A stretch of 64,000 nt of DNA from Rothia sp. SD9660Na (GTDB lineage: Bacteria; Actinomycetota; Actinomycetes; Actinomycetales; Micrococcaceae): contig NZ_CP125946.1 in assembly GCF_030064065.1 (NCBI RefSeq), positions 1,860,001 through 1,924,000 of the forward strand, given 5' to 3'. Positions within the stretch are counted from its first letter, which is position 1. Each line of letters opens with the position of its first letter. Shown one piece after another: positions 9,439 to 30,052 of the stretch. Made by a program: the position numbers and the translations under genes. The notes below the pieces were generated by a model. The model was not told the origin of the DNA. It saw only the letters and a list, made by a program, of their open reading frames with translations, and searched no databases.

Positions 9439-9945
9439 ATGGCTGTTCAGAGTTCAACCACTATCAACGCTTCTATCGACGACGTCATCCGCGCCTTCGC
9501 CGACGAGAACTTCGCTCGCTTCGCCAGCGAAAAGGTCCGTATCTCCTTCGAGTCCTTCTCTGTTGATGGCGACCCCGCCGGTGCCTTCACCGCCACCACC
9601 GTGCGTGCCATCCCCGCAGACCGCATTCCCGATATGGCCAAGAAGCTCCCCGGCGTCTCCAACGGTGTAACTGTTTCTCAGGTTGACCGTGTCTCAGCTC
9701 CCGCAGCAGACGGCTCCCGCACCGTAGTTTCTGAGGTCACTGTCAAGGGCATCCCCGTCACCGGTAACGCAACCCAGACCCTGACCCCCGCCGGTGAGAC
9801 CACCGAGGTTAAGGTCGATGGTGAGGTCAAGTGCTCCATTCCCCTGGTTGGTAAGAAGATTGCCGCTGCTGCTGAGCCCCAGATTGGCCGCGTTTTCTCG
9901 GCCCTGGGCACCAGCGCCGAAGAGTACATCAAGGCTAACTACTAA
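9439..9945 (+). CDS. DUF2505 domain protein
   Basis: 168 aa, close to the usual length of the actinobacterial DUF2505 family (START/SRPBCC-like fold). It starts with a strand-helix pattern (SSTTINASIDDVIRAFADE) and has no signal peptide. Function of the family is unknown; a small-molecule or lipid-binding pocket is the usual suggestion. Preceded by GAAAGAGAGAG and a possible -10 TAGAAT at 9391-9396; it is a separate transcription unit from the polymer operon. Confidence 0.82.
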   Translation: MAVQSSTTINASIDDVIRAFADENFARFASEKVRISFESFSVDGDPAGAFTATTVRAIPADRIPDMAKKLPGVSNGVTVSQVDRVSAPAADGSRTVVSEVTVKGIPVTGNATQTLTPAGETTEVKVDGEVKCSIPLVGKKIAAAAEPQIGRVFSALGTSAEEYIKANY

Positions 9946-9960
9946 GAGTCTCTAGATACC

Positions 9961-10015
9961 AAGGACGCCCCGCCTTCCGCTCCCCTTTGAAGGGGAAGGA
10001 GGGCTGGGCGTCCTT
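9961..10015. terminator. Bidirectional terminator between convergent genes
   Basis: Outer arms AAGGACGCCC (9961-9970) and GGGCGTCCTT (10006-10015) enclose an inner CCTTCC/GGAAGG and TCCCCT/AGGGGA stem. It lies between the DUF2505 gene (+) and the cytidylyltransferase gene (-). Confidence 0.8.
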
Positions 10016-10051
10016 CGTTATGCCTGGGCTTCGCTCTAGAGCAGGAAGCAG

Positions 10052-10486
10052 TTACGCAGCAGCTGCTACCGGGGTGTTGAGGGCTTCGAGGGCTGCCCGC
10101 AGCTTGGTGCTGGAGGTGTGGGCGGTGTAGGGGAAATAGACTACCTGCACGCCGACCTCAGCGAAGCGGTTTTCTAGGTCGATGCCGCGCTGGGTGCCCT
10201 TCCAGTCATCCCCCTTGAAGAAGGTATTGAAGCGAACCTGCTCCCAGGTTTCGAGCTTGTCGACCACGGTTTCGGCCCGGACTTCGTCTACGAAGTCGAT
10301 GTGGGAGACGATTTCCATGCGTTCAGCCAGGGGCACGATGGGCTTACGCCCCTTGGTGATTTCTAGCATTTCGTCGGAGACCACTCCGGCGATCAGGTAG
10401 TCGCAGTTCTTTTTAGCTTGGCGCAGGATGTTGAGGTGGCCTACGTGGAAAAGGTCGAAGGCGCCGGCAGCATAGCCGATGTTCAT
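10052..10486 (-). CDS. TagD-like cytidylyltransferase
   Basis: 144 aa beginning MNIGYAAGAFDLFHVGH. The HxGH nucleotide-binding motif (HVGH, 14-17) and the C-terminal TSSTKLR signature match glycerol-3-phosphate cytidylyltransferase and related alcohol-phosphate enzymes. Known members make CDP-glycerol or related CDP-alcohols for wall polymers. The internal ATG at 10486 is chosen because it is preceded by GGGGGA and because the family begins there; a longer open frame to 10636 has no family match. A link to the CDP-alcohol transferase at 2578 is plausible but not shown. Confidence 0.82.
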   Translation of the reverse strand: MNIGYAAGAFDLFHVGHLNILRQAKKNCDYLIAGVVSDEMLEITKGRKPIVPLAERMEIVSHIDFVDEVRAETVVDKLETWEQVRFNTFFKGDDWKGTQRGIDLENRFAEVGVQVVYFPYTAHTSSTKLRAALEALNTPVAAAA

Positions 10487-10636
10487 GGGTCCCCCAGGTG
10501 TGTGTGGGCGCGGTGCGAGCGCGCGAGTACGGGTGTGTTTGCCTTTTAACCCTACGTTAAGGTTCGGGGCAGGGTAAGGACGCAGCCGGGGGCGCTTTGG
10601 GGGACACCCCAGGTCAGAGCGTGGTTGGGGTAACAA

Positions 10637-10684
10637 AACCCACCCCGCTACAGCCCGACAGGGGCGGACGCTTTGGGGTGGGTT
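10637..10684 (-). terminator. Terminator of the sufS-sufU operon
   Basis: On the minus strand a 10-bp perfect stem (AACCCACCCC with GGGGTGGGTT) is followed by TTTTGTT, about 50 nt after the sufU stop codon. Confidence 0.8.
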
Positions 10685-10732
10685 CTGTGCGCTGAGCTGG
10701 GGCTTTGATCTGAACTAGGCTTGCATGCTGAG

Positions 10733-11191
10733 TTAGGCGGCTGCTGCTTCCTTGGTGGCTTCTTCGGCTGCAACCCAGGAGAGCATGGCGCATTTCACGC
10801 GGGCTACGAACTTGGAGACACCGGCGAAGGCTGCGGCATCGCCGAGGACTTCTTCGTCGGGTTCGATCTGGCCGCGGGAGCGGAGCATCTCGCGGAAGTC
10901 GTCGACGAGCTTCTGGAATTCCTGGGTGCTCATGCCGGGGGCCATTTCTGAGAGTACGGAGGCTGCGGCCATAGAGATGGAGCAGCCGTCGCCTTCCCAG
11001 GAGATGGAGTCGATGGTGTTCCCGTCGTCGTTGAGGATGACGCGTAGATTGATTTCGTCGCCACAGGTGGGGTTGTACTGGTGGTTGGTTGCGGCGCGGG
11101 TTCCGTCTGGGGGGTCGATGAGGCCCTCGCCGGAGCGTTGCTTGGAGTGTTCCAGAATGATTTGCTGATAGAGCTGTTCGAGGCCGCTCAT
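10733..11191 (-). CDS. sufU: SUF-type Fe-S assembly protein SufU
   Basis: 152 aa. The three conserved Cys sites of SufU are present: NPTCGD, GDGCSIS and RVKCAML, with the insertion that separates SufU from IscU. In Gram-positive bacteria SufU receives persulfide sulfur from SufS (zinc-dependent sulfur transfer) and passes it to SufBCD. The start has GAAGGA upstream. It follows sufS by 45 nt on the same strand, so the pair is one operon. Confidence 0.92.
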   Translation of the reverse strand: MSGLEQLYQQIILEHSKQRSGEGLIDPPDGTRAATNHQYNPTCGDEINLRVILNDDGNTIDSISWEGDGCSISMAAASVLSEMAPGMSTQEFQKLVDDFREMLRSRGQIEPDEEVLGDAAAFAGVSKFVARVKCAMLSWVAAEEATKEAAAA

Positions 11192-11236
11192 AGTCGGTGT
11201 CCTTCTTTCACGGTGGGTGGCTAGTTGCGCTTATCT

Positions 11237-12544
11237 TTAGTCGGTGTAGCCGAAGTAGCGGCGCACCTTAGCGAGTTCTTCGATGAAGCGTTCTACGTCG
11301 TCGGTGGTGTTGTAGATGTAGGCGCTGGCGCGGGTTGAGGCGGTGATGCCAAGAGCCCGGTGCAGGGGCTGGGCACAGTGGTGGCCTACGCGTACGGCGA
11401 TGCCCTTTTCGTCGAGGAGCTGGCCGACGTCGTGGGGGTGCACGCCTTCGACGTGTACCGAGGTGAGTCCGGCTCGGGGCTGACCTGCTGCTGGGCCGAT
11501 GAGGCGGACGCCGGGGATTGAGCTCACGCCTTCGGCAAGTAGCTGTCCGAGCTTGGATTCCCAGGCGTGAACCTGTTTCATGCCCAGGTGCTGGAGGTAG
11601 CGTATGGCTTCGGCCCAGGCTACGGCCTGGGAGACGCGCTGGGTTCCTGCCTCAAATTTGATGGGGGCGGGCATCCATTCAGCTTCGGTCATGGTGACCT
11701 TGGTAATCATGGAGCCGCCGGTGAGGAAGGGAGGCATAGCGTCAAGCAGCTCGTTGCGGCCGTAGAGGGCTCCGATGCCGGTGGGAGCGAGCATCTTGTG
11801 GGCTGAGAAAGCTGCGAAGTCCACGCCGAGTTTTTTTACATCAACGGGCATGTGGGGCACTGACTGGCAGGCATCCAGCACGGTGAGAGCTCCAACTTTC
11901 TTGGCGAGTGAGACCATGAAATCGACGTCGGTGATGGAGCCTGCCACGTTGGAGACGTGGGTAAAGGCGAGGACGCGGGTGCGGTCGGTAACGATGGACT
12001 CGGCAGCTTCGTAGTCAATGAGCCCCTGGTCGGTGACCGGGATGTAGCGTAGGGTTGCGCCGGTTCGGGCTGCCAGGATTTGCCAGGGAATGACGTTGGC
12101 GTGGTGTTCCTGCTCGGTGGTGACAATTTCATCGCCCTCCCCCAGCGCAAAGCGGGTGGCGGCGTCCCCACCGATTCCGGCGGACGCATTGCCGAAGGAG
12201 TAGGTGAGCAGGTTAAGGGCTTCGGTGGCGTTGGAGGTCCAGACCAGCTCGTTCTCGGCGGCGCCGACGAAGGAGGCGACGGTGCGGCGGGCGTCCTCGA
12301 AGGCGTCGGTGGCGTCGACGGCGAGGGTGTGGGCGCCGCGGTGGACAGCTGAATTCGCGCCGAGGTAGTAGTTACGTTCAGCGTCGAGTACCTGGAGGGG
12401 GTTTTGGCTGGTGGCTCCGGTGTCGAGGTAGGCCAGGGGGTGGCCGTTGACCTCACGGCTGAGGATGGGGTAGTCCTTGCGTAGCTCGGTGACGAGTTCG
12501 TTGGTGAGCTCTGCTCCGGCGGGAGTGCGGTAGCTGCTGGCCAC
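11237..12544 (-). CDS. sufS: Cysteine desulfurase SufS
   Basis: 435 aa, PLP-dependent class V aminotransferase fold. The PLP lysine lies in FSAHKMLAPTG and the catalytic cysteine in RVGHHCAQPLH. GTG start with GGAAAGG upstream. It releases sulfur from cysteine for Fe-S cluster building and works with SufU encoded next. sufB, sufC and sufD, usually adjacent in Actinobacteria, are not in this window. Confidence 0.93.
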   Translation of the reverse strand: MASSYRTPAGAELTNELVTELRKDYPILSREVNGHPLAYLDTGATSQNPLQVLDAERNYYLGANSAVHRGAHTLAVDATDAFEDARRTVASFVGAAENELVWTSNATEALNLLTYSFGNASAGIGGDAATRFALGEGDEIVTTEQEHHANVIPWQILAARTGATLRYIPVTDQGLIDYEAAESIVTDRTRVLAFTHVSNVAGSITDVDFMVSLAKKVGALTVLDACQSVPHMPVDVKKLGVDFAAFSAHKMLAPTGIGALYGRNELLDAMPPFLTGGSMITKVTMTEAEWMPAPIKFEAGTQRVSQAVAWAEAIRYLQHLGMKQVHAWESKLGQLLAEGVSSIPGVRLIGPAAGQPRAGLTSVHVEGVHPHDVGQLLDEKGIAVRVGHHCAQPLHRALGITASTRASAYIYNTTDDVERFIEELAKVRRYFGYTD

Positions 12545-17714: not shown

Positions 17715-19130
17715 ATGACCATACTTGATGTAGTGCGCATGTTGCGCGTAAACTTCAAAATCCTCTTAACAGGGCTTTTAATCGGAGCATTACTAGGCTT
17801 CGGCTACTCTCTTTTACAGCCCAAAATATACGCTTCCACAGCAACAGGCTATGTAACAGTCGGCGACGGTACTGGTATTGGGGATGTTATCTCAGGCTCA
17901 GCTGCCGCCAAGGAAAAAGCCTCAGCTTACCTAGCCTTTGTTAACAGTGGCCCCGTCGCCGATGAAATCGTTGCCGCAAACCCTGAACTGAATCTTACGC
18001 GTTCTCAAGTACAGAGCAATCTGACTGCAACTGTAGATGCAAACTCAGCGCTGATTCGTGTTTCAGCGACCGGGAACACACCCCAAGCAGCTCAGGCGCT
18101 AGCCAACAGTTCTCTAGAAGCTGTTGCAAAGGTAGCCAACAACCTTGAGGGGAGTAGCACCATACGAGTTATTCCCCTTGAGGACGGCACTATCAGCAAT
18201 ACTCCGGTTAGCCCCGACACTACTAAGTTGGTTGGCATAGGCGCTGCAGCTGGTCTTGTGCTAGTATTAGCCGTCATTCTTCTACGTCGGACTGTTGACA
18301 CCAAACTACGTACACGAGATGACGCCACTAAAGCTACAGATGCAGGTATTCTTGGGGTTCTTCCTGTTTCTGAAGAGCTCACTGAAGAGAACATTCTTCG
18401 CGTCAACAGTGATCATATCTCGCAAGAAGCCATCCGACAGATGCGCACTAATCTGCGCTTCGTCAACGTAGATAACCCGCCTAAATCTCTTATCATTACG
18501 TCAGCTGAGCCTGGGGAAGGTAAATCAACAGTTTCTACCTCTATTGCTAGGGCTCTGGCTGACGCAGGTGAGCCTGTCATTATTATCGATGCGGACCTTC
18601 GTCGCCCTACCATCGCGAAAAAGTTTAAAATCGACTCTAAAATCGGCCTTACCCAGGTGCTTGCAGGCCAGGTTGAACTAGCAGACGCAGTCCGCCAGTT
18701 TGAAGATACCCAGCTCTTTATTCTGCCGGCAGGCCGCATCCCCCCTAACCCTTCAGAACTTCTCGGATCTGATAAGATGCGTCAGTTGATTGCAGAGCTT
18801 TCAGGAGAGTTCACTGTAATTGTGGACGTACCGCCTGTGCTACCTGTGACCGATGCAGCCCTCCTCTCAACTGCTGTAGATGGTGTGGTACTAGTTGGCA
18901 GCGTAGGTAAGACCCGCAAGGAAAACCTGGCTGAAGCAGCTAGCAACCTGCGAAAAGTTAGCGCTAATCTACTAGGCATTGTTATTAACCGGGCTCCTCG
19001 TACCGGCCTTGGTAATACCTACTACGGGTTCGCCTATGCCGCTAACAACGCCTACAGTAGCTACTACGGCTCTGACGAGGAAAAGTCAAAAGGCAAGCCA
19101 AAGAAAAAACGTAAAAAGGCTAACAAATAG
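17715..19130 (+). CDS. Wzz/BY-kinase: polysaccharide co-polymerase with tyrosine kinase domain
   Basis: 471 aa. Wzz domain with membrane helices at ~15-35 and ~172-190, fused to an intact bacterial tyrosine kinase domain: Walker A AEPGEGKST (264-272), Walker A' IDADLRRP (291-298), Walker B VIVDVPP (368-374). A Tyr-rich cluster (436-451: TYYGFAYAANNAYSSYY) is the likely autophosphorylation site, then a Lys-rich tail. Such proteins control chain length and export of capsule-type polymers. The likely phosphatase partner is at 38979. A TAGACT (17664-17669) may be its -10. Confidence 0.92.
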   Translation: MTILDVVRMLRVNFKILLTGLLIGALLGFGYSLLQPKIYASTATGYVTVGDGTGIGDVISGSAAAKEKASAYLAFVNSGPVADEIVAANPELNLTRSQVQSNLTATVDANSALIRVSATGNTPQAAQALANSSLEAVAKVANNLEGSSTIRVIPLEDGTISNTPVSPDTTKLVGIGAAAGLVLVLAVILLRRTVDTKLRTRDDATKATDAGILGVLPVSEELTEENILRVNSDHISQEAIRQMRTNLRFVNVDNPPKSLIITSAEPGEGKSTVSTSIARALADAGEPVIIIDADLRRPTIAKKFKIDSKIGLTQVLAGQVELADAVRQFEDTQLFILPAGRIPPNPSELLGSDKMRQLIAELSGEFTVIVDVPPVLPVTDAALLSTAVDGVVLVGSVGKTRKENLAEAASNLRKVSANLLGIVINRAPRTGLGNTYYGFAYAANNAYSSYYGSDEEKSKGKPKKKRKKANK

Positions 19131-19155: not shown

Positions 19156-19189
19156 ATGGGGAGGGGCTTATAGTTCCTCCCCATCTTTT
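19156..19189 (+). terminator. Terminator after the BY-kinase gene
   Basis: Perfect 9-bp stem (ATGGGGAGG/CCTCCCCAT) followed by CTTTT. It separates the kinase gene from the next pair. A TATAAT at 19189-19194 directly after it may be the -10 of the nucleotidyltransferase gene. Confidence 0.8.
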
Positions 19190-19236: not shown

Positions 19237-20127
19237 ATGACAGAACCCTCAGGAACAGATCATCAAATATCAAAACAAAATCACCAATATAACGATTTAC
19301 CGTTAAATGTACGCATTCATCTAAGTCATGCTCATCTGCAGTATCTTGCGACTGCATCTTCTAGCGATATCCTACATATCAAAGGATATATCTATGGAAC
19401 TGACACATACCCAACGACAAGAGCAAGTTCAGATGTTGACCTATTGGTACGCCCGGAACATGTTGAGAAATTTGTAGAATCCGCAGTAAGCGCCGGGTGG
19501 CAGATTCTTACTACTTTTGAAACTGGATCAGACTATCATCATGCCATGACCATATATCATCCTACTTGGGGCCTAGCAGATATCCATAGAGCTTTTCCCG
19601 GCATCGGTTTGGATGCGACACAAGCTTTTAACCGGCTTTGGGAAAAACGCAGAATAAAAACAATAGCAAATGCAGAGTGTTTAACTACCTCGCTTACTGA
19701 TTCCCGTATTATTGTTTACGTTCATGCTGCTAGATCTACAAGTAAGCATAAACCAGATGTAGAGTATCTTAATGAGATACTCTCCTGGGAGGAAAAGAAA
19801 GAAATAGAAAAAAGAGTCGCAGAGATTGAAGCTGATTTAGCATTTGCCGCCGCTACAGGAACAATTGACAAATATTCAAAGCATCCTGACTACCTTTTTT
19901 GGAAAACAGCTTCACAAGAAACATCGAGCATTACACGATGGTATGCCAGGATTAAAAGCGCACCATCTTTACAACAAAAAATTAAAACAATTTTTAATAT
20001 TTTCCTAGTAAACCGAGATCATTTAGCTATGGAACTTGGGCATCAGCCAACTCGACAAGAAGTGCGACAAAAATTTTTTACCCGCTTCAAAGAATTGGCA
20101 AAAACACTGAGAAAAAAAGGGAAGTAA
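19237..20127 (+). CDS. Nucleotidyltransferase family protein (NTP_transf_5-like)
   Basis: 296 aa, cytoplasmic. The polymerase-beta-like core is visible: KGYIYGTDTYP, then RASSDVDLLV with the metal-binding DxD near residues 65-67, and a later WGLADIHRAFPGI segment with a third acidic residue. This fits the uncharacterised nucleotidyltransferase family PF14907. In lasso-peptide and some other RiPP clusters this family is found next to PqqD-like proteins, and here a PqqD-like gene follows with no gap (stop TAA, then ATG). The target is unknown. The gene is AT-richer than the rml and housekeeping genes, consistent with transfer. Confidence 0.78.
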   Translation: MTEPSGTDHQISKQNHQYNDLPLNVRIHLSHAHLQYLATASSSDILHIKGYIYGTDTYPTTRASSDVDLLVRPEHVEKFVESAVSAGWQILTTFETGSDYHHAMTIYHPTWGLADIHRAFPGIGLDATQAFNRLWEKRRIKTIANAECLTTSLTDSRIIVYVHAARSTSKHKPDVEYLNEILSWEEKKEIEKRVAEIEADLAFAAATGTIDKYSKHPDYLFWKTASQETSSITRWYARIKSAPSLQQKIKTIFNIFLVNRDHLAMELGHQPTRQEVRQKFFTRFKELAKTLRKKGK

Positions 20128-20418
20128 ATGTACCAACGAAGCACATCGACTGCTTTCTTATACAGCTCTGACATGAGTTCAGTAGAGATCGAGAATGAAA
20201 TTGTTTACGTCGCTAACGTAGAAAAATCACAAATCTATACCTTAGATGGAGTTGGCCTAATAATCTGGGAGTTGCTTGAAACCCCACTATCCCTTACAGC
20301 TCTAGTCACAGAAATTTCAGAAATATACGATGTAAGCAGAAAAATAATCGAGGAAAGTATATCATCGTTTCTCATAGCCCTCATAGATCAAGGACTTATC
20401 GAGAAAATGAATGATTAA
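20128..20418 (+). CDS. PqqD-family protein (RiPP recognition element-like)
   Basis: 96 aa. It shows the PqqD-like pattern: an N-terminal beta hairpin (IENEIVYVANVEKSQIYTL), the DGVGLIIWELLETPLSL segment, then a winged-helix-like C-terminal half. PqqD-like domains bind leader peptides in RiPP pathways, and diverged members occur in polysaccharide loci with unknown roles. Good Shine-Dalgarno (AAGGGAAG) overlapping the end of the upstream gene. No precursor peptide, protease or cyclase gene is evident nearby: the next gene is convergent and the gap is only 49 nt. Confidence 0.8.
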   Translation: MYQRSTSTAFLYSSDMSSVEIENEIVYVANVEKSQIYTLDGVGLIIWELLETPLSLTALVTEISEIYDVSRKIIEESISSFLIALIDQGLIEKMND

Positions 20419-20467: not shown

Positions 20468-21607
20468 CTATAGAGCTTCAATTTTACCCTTGATTTCAGC
20501 TATAAATCGCTCTTCTGAAAATTTTTGAACGTACTCTTTAATAGCGAATGGATCAAAATCTTCGGGCGTGAACCTATCTACAGCCTGACGGATCAGCTCT
20601 GCTGTCGGTGCCTCAATAAAAGTTCCGTTCAATCCTTCAACGATAGTGTCAAGAAATCCTCCGGCCTTTAGAGCAATAGTTGGCTTGCCGAAGGATCCTC
20701 CTTCAAGAGGGGTAATGCCAAAGTCCTCGTGAGAAATAGCCAGTAAAGCTGTAGAATTAGCATACGCATACCTCATCTGCGCATCGCTTATATGAGATGC
20801 AAAAGCAATATTTGAGTCGCTTATGGCTTTAAGATCTTCTTTCATTGGCCCTGCCCCAATGACTAGAAGTTGCTTATTACTCCCAGAAAACGCTTTAACC
20901 GCATGCTGTATATTTTTATATGGCAATAATCGGGATACAATCAAATAATACCCCTGATCCATAAATTCTTCTAGACCTTTTATTTTAGCATGTTCACCAT
21001 CTTCTTTGACCGAAAATGGGGGATAAATAATATCTACTGTTTTCCCATAAACATTATGGATTCTGTCCTTGATCGTTGTTGAATTTGCAACATAATTAGG
21101 CTGTTTTGCGGCGGCCCGCTGATCCCAAAAAAGTAGAAAAGGTCGCAAAATTCTGAGAGCTATTGAGACCAAGGGGTTAGCAGCATCTCCTAAATACTGA
21201 TCAGTAAGATAAATCCAGCGAGCTGGGGAATGACAATAAACTAAAGTTTTTTTCGGTAGATTAAAACCATGCGCCCACCCCGTGGAAGAAGCTATAACGA
21301 TATCCGCTTTAGGACGTAAAAAGCTTGAGAAAAGGGGAAGAAATGGCAGGGCAAGACGGTGGTCTTTTCTAAAGAGCGAAATTCGATTAAGTGGCGACGT
21401 GATTACCTTACAATTTTTAAAATCCGGATAGGTCTTCTCCGGATCATAAAGAGTAGTATAAATCGTTGCCTCTGGAAAAGCATGATGCAAGGCAAGGACT
21501 ACACGTTCCGCACCACCTCGTTGGGTAAGATAATCATGTGCAATAGCGATCTCTGGTATTTTTTCTTGCTTTTTAAAATTTCCAAGTATTCGATTGAATA
21601 GATTCAT
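20468..21607 (-). CDS. Glycosyltransferase family 4
   Basis: 379 aa, GT-B fold. N-terminal acceptor half contains IAIAHDYLTQRGGAERV; the C-terminal donor half has LIVSRLLPYKN and the E-x7-E type site in SHEDFGITPLEGGSFGKP. Retaining enzyme, soluble or peripheral. Last gene of the long minus-strand operon, converging on the PqqD-like gene; no clear terminator could be assigned in the 49-nt gap. Confidence 0.88.
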   Translation of the reverse strand: MNLFNRILGNFKKQEKIPEIAIAHDYLTQRGGAERVVLALHHAFPEATIYTTLYDPEKTYPDFKNCKVITSPLNRISLFRKDHRLALPFLPLFSSFLRPKADIVIASSTGWAHGFNLPKKTLVYCHSPARWIYLTDQYLGDAANPLVSIALRILRPFLLFWDQRAAAKQPNYVANSTTIKDRIHNVYGKTVDIIYPPFSVKEDGEHAKIKGLEEFMDQGYYLIVSRLLPYKNIQHAVKAFSGSNKQLLVIGAGPMKEDLKAISDSNIAFASHISDAQMRYAYANSTALLAISHEDFGITPLEGGSFGKPTIALKAGGFLDTIVEGLNGTFIEAPTAELIRQAVDRFTPEDFDPFAIKEYVQKFSEERFIAEIKGKIEAL

Positions 21608-25951: not shown

Positions 25952-27089
25952 CCGCTAATACCTCCCCATATTTTTGGCTAATGTTTTTTGTCATCTGGGA
26001 AGTAGAATCCCATGAGAAGGAAGTATCCCTTACACTCAGGTTTTCACGGTAACCAAGAATTTTATCAGCCGCTGCTTCTACTATCTGCTGGCGGTTTTCA
26101 GAGGTTAAAGCAGGAACCATCTCAGCAGGAGCTAGCTGCTCGGGGTTTCCTCCCATAGCAGTCGCAAGTACTTTAAGTCCACCAGCCTTCGCCTCCAACA
26201 AGGTATAAGAATTATTCTCGGCAATTGAGAGCTGTACTAGGACGTCATTGCGGCCCATGACCTCAAAGGGGTCATTGAAGCCTGAAAAGAAAACGTTCGA
26301 TTCAATACCTAGTCGCTTAACCTGTTCTTTAAGATCTTCTAGGCATTCACCCTTACCAGCAATTTCAAGCTGTGCGGTGGAATCCTTTTCAAGTACCAGT
26401 GCAAAGGCATCGATGAGTACATCAATTTTTTTCTCAGGAGCTAACCGTGCCATTGACACTACCCGTAACACGCCGGGCTCCCCTGGTACTCGCTTTTCCT
26501 CGACCTTTTGAGCAACAGTATCTAAGTCAACACCATTAGGAATCACCGTCACATCTTTGGCGCCCCACTTCTTACCCATTTGTACAGAGTTGAAACGCGA
26601 AACAGCAATTTTGCCATCAGTAAACCATAGACGTACGCGGTGTACTAATTCCATTATTTTCTGCTGACGTACAGTTTCGTGGTACACAAGATCGTCAACT
26701 GCGATTCCATGTTCCGTGCTAATAAGCTTGGGTGCACAAACCTTACCTTGCACGACGTGCCGCGCTTTGCGAGCATTCACTACGGCAACAGCAATAACAT
26801 CTGCATACGCAAGATGAGTATGAACTATCGCAGGCTGGATTTCCCCAATAATACGGTCTAGAGCAACGAATGACTTCTTAAAACCAAAGTCAGGCCCAAA
26901 TTCACCGGTTCGTACGTCTACACCCATGTTTACTAGGTGCTCTGACAGCTCACCTTCTGGGCAGAAAAAGACCAGGTTATACCCGGGGATTCCATTACGG
27001 GCAATATCTACTAGATGCCGGGCCACACCTGCAAAGTCAGGCACCGGCATACACAGTAGAACAGTCGGAGGAGTCGAGTTTACAGCCAC
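25944..27089 (-). CDS. Glycosyltransferase family 4
   Basis: 381 aa. GT-B features: ARHLVDIARNG near the N-terminus, HTHLAYADVIA, donor half VSMARLAPEKKIDVLIDAF and SIAENNSYTLLEAKAGG. GTG start lies inside the end of the NeuB-fusion gene, so translation is coupled. Position right after the nonulosonate genes makes it part of the same repeat-unit assembly. Confidence 0.88.
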   Translation of the reverse strand: MAVNSTPPTVLLCMPVPDFAGVARHLVDIARNGIPGYNLVFFCPEGELSEHLVNMGVDVRTGEFGPDFGFKKSFVALDRIIGEIQPAIVHTHLAYADVIAVAVVNARKARHVVQGKVCAPKLISTEHGIAVDDLVYHETVRQQKIMELVHRVRLWFTDGKIAVSRFNSVQMGKKWGAKDVTVIPNGVDLDTVAQKVEEKRVPGEPGVLRVVSMARLAPEKKIDVLIDAFALVLEKDSTAQLEIAGKGECLEDLKEQVKRLGIESNVFFSGFNDPFEVMGRNDVLVQLSIAENNSYTLLEAKAGGLKVLATAMGGNPEQLAPAEMVPALTSENRQQIVEAAADKILGYRENLSVRDTSFSWDSTSQMTKNISQKYGEVLADG

Positions 27090-29323
27090 TTTTCGAGCCT
27101 ATCGAGTGCGGTGAAGAAGCCTTCGCCGTTGTTGACGTGACCCTGCCAGATTTCGGGGATGAAAGAGGACTTAGGGGTCAGTTCGCGTAGCTGCTTGCCG
27201 AGGGCTGCCCAGTCCACGTCGCCTTCACCGACCTGTACGCCTTCACCGTCCACGCCGATGCCGTCTACCAGGTGCAGGTGGATGGAACGGGGGGCCAGCA
27301 GCTCAACGGCCTCGGAGAGAGGAATCTTGAGGAAGTTGGCCGCCAGCATGGTGTGGGAGATGTCCAGGCAGAGGGCGGTGTTGTAGGTGTCTGAGAAGTC
27401 AGCAGTGTCCTTGGGGTCAAGGAAGAGGTTGTGGTACTGCTGACCGCCCATGAGCCAGGGGTAGGGAGGCAGGGTCTGAGCCGCGATACGCACGCCTGAG
27501 GTATCGAGCTTGGCCAGGGCCTCGCCGATACGCTCATACTTGTCGGCGCGGGCGGACGGTGCGATGTGGCCGTCCTTGGTGAAGCCACCCATGGTGACGA
27601 CCATGACCGGGTCGTCATCCACGGTGAAGTAGCGGGTCAAATCGCGGGTAATGTCGATGGTGCGCTGGACCTCTGCAATCGAGCGCTCCCAGGTTTCCTG
27701 GTCGCGAGAAGCCAGATCTACCAGGAAGTCACCGGCGAAGAGGTCGGGCAGGTGGGTGGTGAAGGACATGTCGAGCTTACGATCGAAGACCTCATCGATG
27801 TCGACTTCAAGATCCTTGTAGGAGAAGTGGAACTCCAGGAAGTCAGGCTCGGCGTCCTCAATCAGGGGCTTGTAGTCGTGGTAACGGACGGGCAGGCCCC
27901 AGGGGCGATCGAATGTGAAGTCGCGGCGGGTCACTAGGTCGTCCTTCAGATCCCCTTCGAAGAAGAAGGTGCCGGCTTCAACCTCACGCTGCATGGTGCG
28001 GCCCAGAAGCTGGGGCAGGTAGTTGGGCTGCAGACCGCGGCCGGGTGACTTAACCTCGACGTCCGCCTCGGTCACAACTTCACCCTTAGCAATGGTGCGC
28101 GTAGCAACCAGTGACTTAGCAAGGTTGACACGGTTCATGAGCTCACCGGTGGAGACCTCGCGGGGGGCTGAGGTACCGATAGATTCCTCTACCTCACGAA
28201 TCTGCTGCACCATAGCCTTGAACTCGTCAGGCAGCAGGGAGACGGTGTGGTCATTACCTTCGAGGGTCTTATCGACGGTGAAGTGCTTTTCAATAATCTT
28301 GGCACCGCGGGCAACGGCCGCAATGGGCACGTGGTAGCCGCGTTCGTGGCCTGAGTAGCCCACCAGACTCTGACCGATTTCAGCCAGGCGGTCCATGTAA
28401 GCCAGGTTGACGTCCTTGAAGGGCGCGGGATAGGTGGACTGGCACTGCAGCAGGGCGTAGGAGGCACCCAAGGAGCGCAGCAGGTTAACCGACTCGCGGA
28501 TTTCTTCTTCACGGCTCATACCGGTAGAGACCAGCATGGGCAGGCCGCGGGAGGCCATATCGCGCAGTAGCTCGTGGTTAGTCAGGTCGGCTGAGGCAAC
28601 CTTGAGACCCTGAATACCGTAGTCGACCAGAGCCTGGACCGAGGGGCCGTCCCAGGGGGTGCACATGATGTCCATATCGTGCTGCTTGACATGGTCAAAG
28701 ACCTCGTACATCTGATCCACGGTAAAGGAGAAGCGGGAGAGTAGGTCGAGGGTGTACTGAACACCTAGGTCTTCGCCGGCTGACTTTGAGCCCTTCTGGC
28801 GGTAGAGGGCGTCCATGTCGCGCAGCTGGAACTTAACAGCGTCTGCACCTGTGTCAACAGCCAGGTCCACCAGGCGCTTTGCCAGGTCAACATCGCCCTG
28901 GTGGTTGTTGCCGATTTCGGCGATGATGAAGGAGGGCGAGTCTTCGGTGATTTCGGTGCGGCCAATACGCAGCACGTTCTGCTCGTCCATGGCGATAGCA
29001 ACCAGGTGGCCTCGCTCGTCCACCAGGGGAAGAAGGCTGATACCCTTGGCAAATTCGCCCTGTAGCTCTGCCGGTTCCGAACCGATGGGGGCAGTCTTGA
29101 CGCCCAGGTTAGCCACCTCAAGGGCACTGGTTTCAAGGGGGGCAGCGGGGTTGGCAATCAGCCAGCGGCGGAAGTCACCGTCTGACAGGGAGCCCTTAAG
29201 CACACCTGACTCGTTGACCAGGAAGATTATACGCTGCCCGTTAGCAGAAATCTTCTGTAGGGCAGTCAGCACCGGATCCTCGGAGAAAACGATGTACGGG
29301 GTGATATTGCGTTCGATAATCAT
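27080..29323 (-). CDS. Four-domain NeuB-type nonulosonate synthase: CBS-NeuB-SAF-TIM barrel
   Basis: 747 aa, about twice the length of a plain NeuB. Residues ~1-118 are a CBS-domain pair. Residues ~130-385 are a NeuB catalytic barrel: AEIGNNHQGD (135-144), KFQLRD, and EKHFTVDKTLEGNDH (345-359). Residues ~395-455 are the SAF/antifreeze-like domain (LVATRTIAKGEVVTEADV). Residues ~465-747 are a second TIM barrel of the sugar-phosphate isomerase/AP-endonuclease-2 type (DISHTMLAANFLKIP, HLHLVDGIG). NeuB enzymes condense phosphoenolpyruvate with an amino-sugar to give a sialic-type nine-carbon acid. The barrel may be an epimerase or isomerase feeding the synthase (inference). Followed by the GT4 gene and preceded by neuA. 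Confidence 0.9.
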   Translation of the reverse strand: MIIERNITPYIVFSEDPVLTALQKISANGQRIIFLVNESGVLKGSLSDGDFRRWLIANPAAPLETSALEVANLGVKTAPIGSEPAELQGEFAKGISLLPLVDERGHLVAIAMDEQNVLRIGRTEITEDSPSFIIAEIGNNHQGDVDLAKRLVDLAVDTGADAVKFQLRDMDALYRQKGSKSAGEDLGVQYTLDLLSRFSFTVDQMYEVFDHVKQHDMDIMCTPWDGPSVQALVDYGIQGLKVASADLTNHELLRDMASRGLPMLVSTGMSREEEIRESVNLLRSLGASYALLQCQSTYPAPFKDVNLAYMDRLAEIGQSLVGYSGHERGYHVPIAAVARGAKIIEKHFTVDKTLEGNDHTVSLLPDEFKAMVQQIREVEESIGTSAPREVSTGELMNRVNLAKSLVATRTIAKGEVVTEADVEVKSPGRGLQPNYLPQLLGRTMQREVEAGTFFFEGDLKDDLVTRRDFTFDRPWGLPVRYHDYKPLIEDAEPDFLEFHFSYKDLEVDIDEVFDRKLDMSFTTHLPDLFAGDFLVDLASRDQETWERSIAEVQRTIDITRDLTRYFTVDDDPVMVVTMGGFTKDGHIAPSARADKYERIGEALAKLDTSGVRIAAQTLPPYPWLMGGQQYHNLFLDPKDTADFSDTYNTALCLDISHTMLAANFLKIPLSEAVELLAPRSIHLHLVDGIGVDGEGVQVGEGDVDWAALGKQLRELTPKSSFIPEIWQGHVNNGEGFFTALDRLEKWL

Positions 29324-29332
29324 GGTATTTAT

Positions 29333-30052
29333 TTAACCTTCGTTTTCTTCTGATGCGAGTGTGGTGAGTAGCTGGTGTTCTGCGACGGAGAAGTCGATGG
29401 GGGCGTCAATGTCTACGCCTTCGACCTCATCAAGCATGAAGAGCTCAATCTCGCCGCCCAATCGGTTGTGCAGAGTTTCATAGAGCTCGGTCTTGGTAAT
29501 ATACATGGAGCCGTTTTCGCGGTAGCGGAAAGTCTCACGGGTGAGTTCCTGACGCCGAGGGCGAGCCATGACCTCATACTGGGCAGTCGGTGGCTCGGTG
29601 GCAGCCCAGATAAAGGGGCCGATGGGGATAACGCCCACCATAGAATCCGATGCAGAGACAGCGAACTGGCGGATAGCGCGGGCCAGGGTGCCGGGCAGGC
29701 GGACGGGCGAGGTCGCTTGCAGGAGCATGACGGCGTCCGGACGTTTGCCCGCAGCTGTGTAGAACTCGATAGCGTGCTCAATCACCGGTTCGGTAGCGGT
29801 GGTGTCTTCTGCCAGGTGGGGCGGGCGCATGAAGGGTACCTCTGCCCCGTGCTGGCGGGCAATATCAGCTAGCTCAGCGTCATCGGTTGAGACCAGCACG
29901 TCAACCAGGTGCTCGCCTTCCAGCTCAGCCTTTGCGGCAAGGGCCTGCTCAATGGTCCAGGCGACGAGGGGCTTACCAGCGATGGGTTTGAGGTTCTTTC
30001 GGGGGATTCCCTTGGACCCGCCGCGAACGGGTATCACGCATAGAACGCGCAT
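29333..30052 (-). CDS. neuA: CMP-nonulosonate (acylneuraminate) cytidylyltransferase
   Basis: 239 aa. N-terminal CVIPVRGGSKGIPRKNL carries the CTP-binding loop; SPVRLPGTLARAI and the LDEVEGVDIDAP end match NeuA/PseF/LegF enzymes. It activates a nonulosonic acid as its CMP derivative for transfer. Whether the acid is sialic, legionaminic or pseudaminic cannot be told from this protein. Placed 9 nt upstream of the NeuB fusion and directly after the candidate transferase gene. Confidence 0.9.
   Translation of the reverse strand: MRVLCVIPVRGGSKGIPRKNLKPIAGKPLVAWTIEQALAAKAELEGEHLVDVLVSTDDAELADIARQHGAEVPFMRPPHLAEDTTATEPVIEHAIEFYTAAGKRPDAVMLLQATSPVRLPGTLARAIRQFAVSASDSMVGVIPIGPFIWAATEPPTAQYEVMARPRRQELTRETFRYRENGSMYITKTELYETLHNRLGGEIELFMLDEVEGVDIDAPIDFSVAEHQLLTTLASEENEG

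Follow-up and report, generated by a model that had tools for sequence, protein, structure and literature searches.

A candidate modification system for Tat-exported proteins that includes a nucleotidyltransferase-PqqD gene pair from a Rothia capsule locus

A capsule locus of Rothia sp. SD9660Na, contained in the 64,000-nucleotide stretch analysed here (contig NZ_CP125946.1 of assembly GCF_030064065.1, positions 1,860,001 to 1,924,000 of the forward strand; hereafter the window), includes two adjacent genes encoding a nucleotidyltransferase (NTase) and a PqqD-like recognition element (RRE) of the kind known from ribosomally synthesized and post-translationally modified peptides (RiPPs). Comparative analysis indicates that this pair is probably the NTase arm of a three-part, RRE-guided kinase and NTase system, the substrates of which would be proteins exported by the twin-arginine translocation (Tat) pathway and marked by a common tag. 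In the proposed mechanism, the RREs of the kinase and NTase arms would grip the W-x-x-P-x-[VI] motif of the signal peptide in the cytoplasm, an HprK/PEPCK-type kinase would phosphorylate a near-invariant serine 17 positions after the tryptophan (W+17), and the NTase, brought by the window PqqD, would add a nucleotide- or sugar-derived group to the serine phosphate. After Tat export, a cut at AxA would leave the modified residue exposed at the N terminus of the mature protein. For a link of the system to the capsule, such as attachment of the modified proteins or their display, the evidence is the place of the genes, which makes such a role conceivable.

Tat-exported proteins with the common signal [ST]RRx[VLI]xxGxAWxxPx[VI]x6PAxAAS were found near the module in several genera. 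The tag profile (A6), built from eight proteins, matched 51 of the 248 genomes sampled; a first tag scan also picked up VanZ-like and other membrane proteins. At E<=1e-6 the tag is present in 45 genomes and the partner kinase described below in 45, with both in 40 (Fisher p 5e-35; the kinase set leaves out two weaker matches, in G057 and G069). The genus count, by which relatedness is handled in these p values, gives the tag in 17, the kinase in 18 and both in 17 of 85 genera (p 6e-17). Among the 150 tag places listed, which are the strongest matches, 142 are in module genomes. Of these, 58, from 25 of 39 genomes, lie within 15 kb of an NTase or kinase gene, where approximate genome sizes lead one to expect about 2.3, a 25-fold excess.

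In several genomes the tagged proteins, the module and a gene for a bacterial tyrosine kinase (BY-kinase) form one gene run. Loci L234 and L235, with seven and five tags, have the order NTase - PqqD - BY-kinase - kinase - RRE - tagged proteins, and the same run appears in mirror order in L236 (six tags) and L237 (five tags). L243, with two tags, has a run of NTase, BY-kinase, kinase and tagged proteins in which no separate RRE was seen, and L196 is arranged as tagged protein - PqqD - kinase - BY-kinase - NTase. A prediction set beforehand also held: among the matches listed, the Rothia genomes without kinase and NTase (G009, G017 and G022) have no tags, and 2-15 tags occur in each of the other 32. 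Rothia sp. SD9660Na itself encodes at least seven tagged proteins, scattered over the genome and none of them in the window, with Ser at W+17 in seven of seven. One of them (L227, G000:C4:2167500-2171500) has a Peptidase_M26_C domain; the other six gave no Pfam match at E<=0.1.

The geometry of the tag is fixed. The 88 matching frames comprise 79 distinct ones with two basic residues followed by W..P, four with a partial motif and five repeats that were dropped. Among the 79, one of which (in L244) is a chance frame, Pro occupies W+3 in all (by selection) and W+12 in 77, Ala occupies W+15 in 77, and Ser occupies W+17 in 74; past the Ser the proteins diverge in sequence. Since the tag profile includes the Ser, this residue was also counted in a selection made without it, where 45 of 72 frames have Ser at W+17; inspection by eye suggests that, among the 27 non-Ser frames, four (in L234, L235, L240 and L245) are true tags and the others wrong frames. 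A comparison set of other Tat signals (n=11) consists mostly of sequences that are not real signals and shows nothing. Among the four partial matches, one lacks RR and three, all encoded in G199, replace W by L or I. That genome (L246) has the kinase and the NTase and no PqqD match, and the tag and the RRE possibly co-vary there.

The tag resembles the leaders of linear polyphosphorylated peptides (LPPs), reported in 2026 (PMC13381572). If the residue preceding the presumed AxA cut is numbered -1, the tag has W-16, P-13, [VI]-11 and Ser+2, near the spacing of the LPP leader, in which Y-16, P-13 and V-11 precede the cut (PMC13381572). RREs bind the [Y/W]xxPx[LVIFA] motif of lasso and LPP leaders (PMC13381572), and the similarity suggests that W-x-x-P of the Tat tag is an RRE-binding motif in the LPP leader register. 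Of 13 positions by which the LPP protein LppB contacts its leader, the window PqqD keeps six (L32, V35, I56, Y60, F74 and L83), has hydrophobic changes at three (C39, V67 and M78) and is different at T30, N33, V63 and D70.

The NTase gene occupies positions 19237..20127 of the window (+ strand; 296 aa), and the RRE gene, encoding 96 aa, follows on the same strand at 20128..20418. Both family assignments made in the original prediction stand, the NTase scoring 33.9 bits against PF14907 (cut-off 31.2) and the RRE 48.5 bits against PF05402 (cut-off 23.4). The predicted structure of the NTase has the NTase fold. In 84 aligned sequences, residues D66, D68, D115, H47, K49, G50, H102 and H117 are invariant, and the three aspartates are read as putative catalytic acids of this fold. 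The PDB relatives of the window PqqD are PbaB1 (9x90, 5e-7), LppB (9x8z, 1.6e-6) and TbiB1 (5v1u, 4e-6); its best NCBIfam match, the lasso-peptide PqqD chaperone model NF033536, reaches 48.4 of the required 80 bits. It is the one PqqD match at E<=0.001 in its genome. The closest protein match, at 95% identity, is from Rothia nasimurium.

The pair had been taken for an orphan; in fact, the same genome contains a kinase partner, so that kinase, RRE and NTase are all present. The kinase gene (G000:C4:2017480-2018682, - strand) lies approximately 138 kb from the pair, about 93 kb past the right end of the window. Its product has an HprK/PEPCK-type fold, a Walker A motif and an RRE-like domain of its own; Walker A-type proteins were among the 60 listed matches of a PDB profile search, and the HprK type was found by fold search. 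Among 38 kinase open reading frames (ORFs) in loci L062-L141, an RRE is fused in 29, a separate PqqD gene follows directly in eight, and one has neither. In Cutibacterium (L111 and L128) the genes are arranged as kinase - PqqD - NTase - PqqD. Since the kinase thus carries or adjoins its own RRE and the NTase has its own PqqD, the window PqqD most plausibly serves as the subunit that recruits substrate to the NTase, and here we share the earlier view that the PqqD-like domain would bring a protein to this enzyme. The kinase gene follows dcd, which by homology we take to encode dCTP deaminase, and a MauE and thioredoxin-like membrane protein is encoded nearby on the opposite strand (G000:C4:2017480-2019288 and 2019680-2020759, corresponding to 9481-11289 and 11681-12760 of L185). 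In Agromyces, dcd homologues are instead found near the NTase (7 loci). Of 55 non-Rothia loci, 4 have a MauE homologue close to the NTase, and in L087, L086 and L099 (Agromyces, Propionibacteriaceae) MauE-like genes share a locus with PqqD/NTase and a tagged Tat protein.

The pair is not a chance arrangement, since 31 of 35 Rothia genomes carry the NTase, in one copy and always with a PqqD gene just downstream (detected by Pfam at E<=0.001 in 30, two of which score under the curated cut-off, and by BLAST in G033). We compared 30 loci of 15-20 kb from 30 other Rothia genomes. RmlA, BY-kinase and NTase genes stand in succession in 24 of them, the BY-kinase gene immediately precedes the NTase in 27 (L055, L058 and L059 have no adjacent BY-kinase), and a convergent GT4 gene is located downstream of the pair in all 30. 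The BY-kinase association noted earlier is thus borne out, and extends to the gene runs of other genomes described above. The sequence of the pair falls away fast across Rothia in comparison with its capsule neighbours, median identity to the window being 48% for the NTase and 36% for PqqD (24 loci with a match) versus 89% for RmlB and 66% for the BY-kinase. Beyond the genus, the NTase profile retrieved 80 loci, 69 of them non-Rothia by title. Of those 69, 55 span at least 15 kb, and among these PqqD was detected in 44 (and not in 11), BY-kinase in 41, at least two exopolysaccharide (EPS) families in 47 and an HprK-like kinase in 32. P0038 is a natural NTase-PqqD fusion. In Sinomonas, the gene before the NTase was considered as a PqqD candidate and rejected, having no Pfam match and not being PqqD-like by eye. 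The BY-kinase gene has an in-frame TAA or is in pieces in two genomes, one each (G031:C121:8748-10151 and G001:C1:1027562-1029095).

In the window, the pair follows a fused Wzz/BY-kinase gene (17715..19130, + strand; TIGR01007, 175.5 bits, and synteny) and faces the end of the capsule operon, a convergent GT4 glycosyltransferase gene (20468..21607, - strand; Pfam and synteny). The gaps before, within and after the pair are 106, 0 and 49 bp. A terminator-like hairpin of 13 pairs with a T run (19156-19184, + strand) lies between the BY-kinase gene and the NTase; one such hairpin was found in the 64-kb stretch versus a shuffle mean of 1.4, a count that by itself is not above chance, and it is the strength and place of the hairpin that favor the terminator reading. 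The abutting genes, the upstream terminator-like element and the convergence on the capsule operon are therefore as originally described. Like their capsule neighbours, the two genes are AT-rich, with a GC content of 0.39 and 0.38 versus 0.56 for the window. At 27080-30052, a 747-aa protein that we take to be NeuB-like and another, presumably NeuA-like, suggest a nonulosonic-acid capsule. A tblastn search of the NTase against plasmids gave no match.

Among described systems, the LPP clusters of Bacilli capsule loci, which encode a kinase, an RRE, an NTP transferase, a SipW-like peptidase and an exporter (LppA/K/B/S/D/N in Paenibacillus), are the most instructive for comparison (PMC13381572). 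Both systems combine an HprK-like kinase, a discrete RRE and an NTP transferase in capsule or EPS loci, and share a [Y/W]xxPx[VLI] leader motif and, with the cut presumed here, a Ser near the mature N terminus and signal-peptidase-like processing. LppK phosphorylates S3 of the LPP core, and deletion of lppN changed nothing detectably; the biological roles of LPPs are given as unknown, and their distribution as Bacillota-restricted and, in the authors' words, extremely patchy (PMC13381572). In contrast, the system considered here belongs to Actinomycetota, is nearly genus-wide in Rothia, has an RRE for each enzyme and would act on Tat-exported, often dispersed proteins, whereas LPP substrates are precursors of 35-200 residues encoded in a cluster with LppS (SipW-like) and an MsbA-like exporter (PMC13381572). 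Neither a SipW-like signal peptidase nor an MsbA-like exporter was found among the scanned neighbours in the window and loci, with no genome-wide search made. The claim that the system is undescribed thus stands in part: the kinase, RRE and NTase have been described together for Bacillota capsule loci (PMC13381572), and the Tat-tagged substrates would be new.

Lasso-peptide tailoring offers a second comparison. In phosphorylated lasso peptides, an HprK-like kinase places a phosphate on a Ser of the precursor, and the NTase PsmN then attaches one or two hexoses to this phosphate or nucleotidylates it first (PMC9266682; PMC8498205). The paeninodin and pseudomycoidin systems (PadeK, PsmK, PsmN) would thus share with ours an HprK homologue acting on Ser, an NTase acting on the phosphate and a PqqD-type B1 protein (PMC8498205; PMC9266682). 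They differ in that the acceptor proposed here is near the N terminus, not C-terminal, and in that the own genome has no B2 protease (0 matches to PF13471) and no Asn-synthetase-like cyclase was detected in seven Pfam-scanned neighbours and six further locus genes, with no genome-wide search made for the latter. The pair therefore lacks a lasso cluster nearby, as had been stated. In two of the 35 Rothia genomes, PqqD adjoins a PF13471 protease away from the NTase (G001:C1:694615-695221 and G009:C6:23218-23828), and on this ground these are probable true lasso clusters. The HPr-rel-A system (NCBIfam TIGR04352 kinase and TIGR04353 PqqD) includes the same kinds of protein, and three kinase relatives find their best NCBIfam match in TIGR04352, but the scores are far under the cut-offs (26.6-29.3 of 200 bits for the three relatives and 15.6 of 35 for the window PqqD). 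In the maturation of Tat-exported redox enzymes, small cytosolic chaperones such as NapD and TorD stay on the Tat signal peptide until modification is complete; the likeness would be one of role, in that a small cytosolic protein would hold a Tat signal peptide here as well. Among the open-licence PMC papers listed in our searches, none connected Tat signals with RREs or reported such a module beyond Bacillota.

These comparisons bear on the alternatives to an RRE-guided system for Tat-exported proteins. As kinase, RRE and NTase form the tailoring core of paeninodin, pseudomycoidin and LPPs, and LPP clusters too lie in capsule loci (PMC13381572), the module might act on a small dedicated precursor encoded elsewhere, with the Tat tag unrelated. 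This we consider quite unlikely, given the lack of a PF13471 protease in the genome and the short gaps around the pair. A search of 114 loci for ORFs of 25-260 aa that begin with a nearby [YW]xxPx[LVIFA] found no RiPP precursor near the pair: the 20 motif clusters of widest occurrence, which are those listed, resemble by eye fragments or wrong frames of known genes and include no candidate with the LPP precursor motif YxxPxVLxHQxIxFETxxS. The Tat tag has in common with that motif only [Y/W]xxPx[V/I] and the Ser register. A dedicated precursor would also leave the co-occurrence and clustering of the tag unexplained.

Modification of a capsule intermediate or of the BY-kinase, with PqqD docking that partner, would suit the gene neighbourhood, and we think it no likelier: the pair persists in the three Rothia loci without an adjacent BY-kinase, and the RRE family, the paired kinase and the tag link point to a peptide substrate. 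The BY-kinase tail, suggested in the original prediction, is accordingly unsupported as a substrate, and the Tat-exported proteins with the common signal are likely better candidates, as judged from sequence. The closest solved folds of the NTase are MenT nucleotidyltransferase toxins, which might point to a toxin-antitoxin or defence pair; this is extremely improbable, as PADLOC matched neither protein, 31 of 35 Rothia genomes retain the pair, the PqqD fold binds peptides, and such a role would leave the partner kinase and the tags without explanation.

Several observations weigh against the RRE-guided system itself. The counterpart of the NTase in LPP clusters, LppN, was without detectable activity in the published test (PMC13381572), and the RRE domain of the Rothia sp. 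SD9660Na kinase scores weakly (PF05402, 14.2 bits against a cut-off of 23.4). In the pocket, LppB D70, which hydrogen-bonds the leader Tyr, is replaced by Ser in the window PqqD and is Asp in 0 of 28 Rothia PqqDs and 31 of 63 others; N33, V63 and T30 are among the changed positions, and V35 gives way to Ser or Pro in 21 of the 28. Asp at this position is tied to Tyr leaders, the Trp-binding PbaB1 having Gln there (PMC13381572), and its lack is suggestive, though only that, of a fit to Trp-bearing tags. The tag profile was seeded by eight module-near proteins, and therefore the clustering is partly by construction at those loci; co-occurrence in other genomes is unaffected. The kinase occurs without a tag in five genomes and the tag (E<=1e-6) without a kinase in five; six others lack the kinase and match the tag weakly. 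G004 has the kinase and, among the matches listed, two tags, and neither NTase nor PqqD. A motif scan of 20 NTase-bearing Nocardioides loci of 12-21 kb, restricted to the loci, gave no tag. Within Rothia, tags are dispersed over the genome, the kinase gene lies at a distance from the pair and the capsule locus, and the three tag-free genomes may represent a single loss event.

A more far-reaching version of the proposal is tentative, and we rate it as rather unlikely: a dispersed actinobacterial sorting or anchoring system run from the capsule locus, in which the Tat signal doubles as an RRE leader and a phospho-linked nucleotide or sugar on the N-terminal Ser links proteins to the capsule polysaccharide. 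If this doubtful step were correct, such N-terminal anchoring would parallel LPXTG/sortase or PEP-CTERM/exosortase. Two observations agree with it: LPXTG-like ends and transmembrane-like segments outside the signal are absent from all 83 complete tagged ORFs, and several genomes have the BY-kinase/Wzz gene within the module.

The system is thus related to LPP and lasso tailoring; its likely novelty lies in Tat-exported substrates with an RRE-motif signal, and much less surely in capsule-linked N-terminal anchoring. If the proposal is true, RiPP tailoring machinery has been turned to N-terminal modification of many Tat-exported proteins, with part of this machinery in capsule loci. PF14907-PqqD pairs that lie outside RiPP clusters would gain a function, and their substrates would be named among unannotated Tat proteins; the proposal would also bear on why phosphopeptide clusters sit in Bacillota capsule loci, a question left open in PMC13381572. 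Capsule-making bacteria would then have an unrecognised means of labelling their surface proteins.
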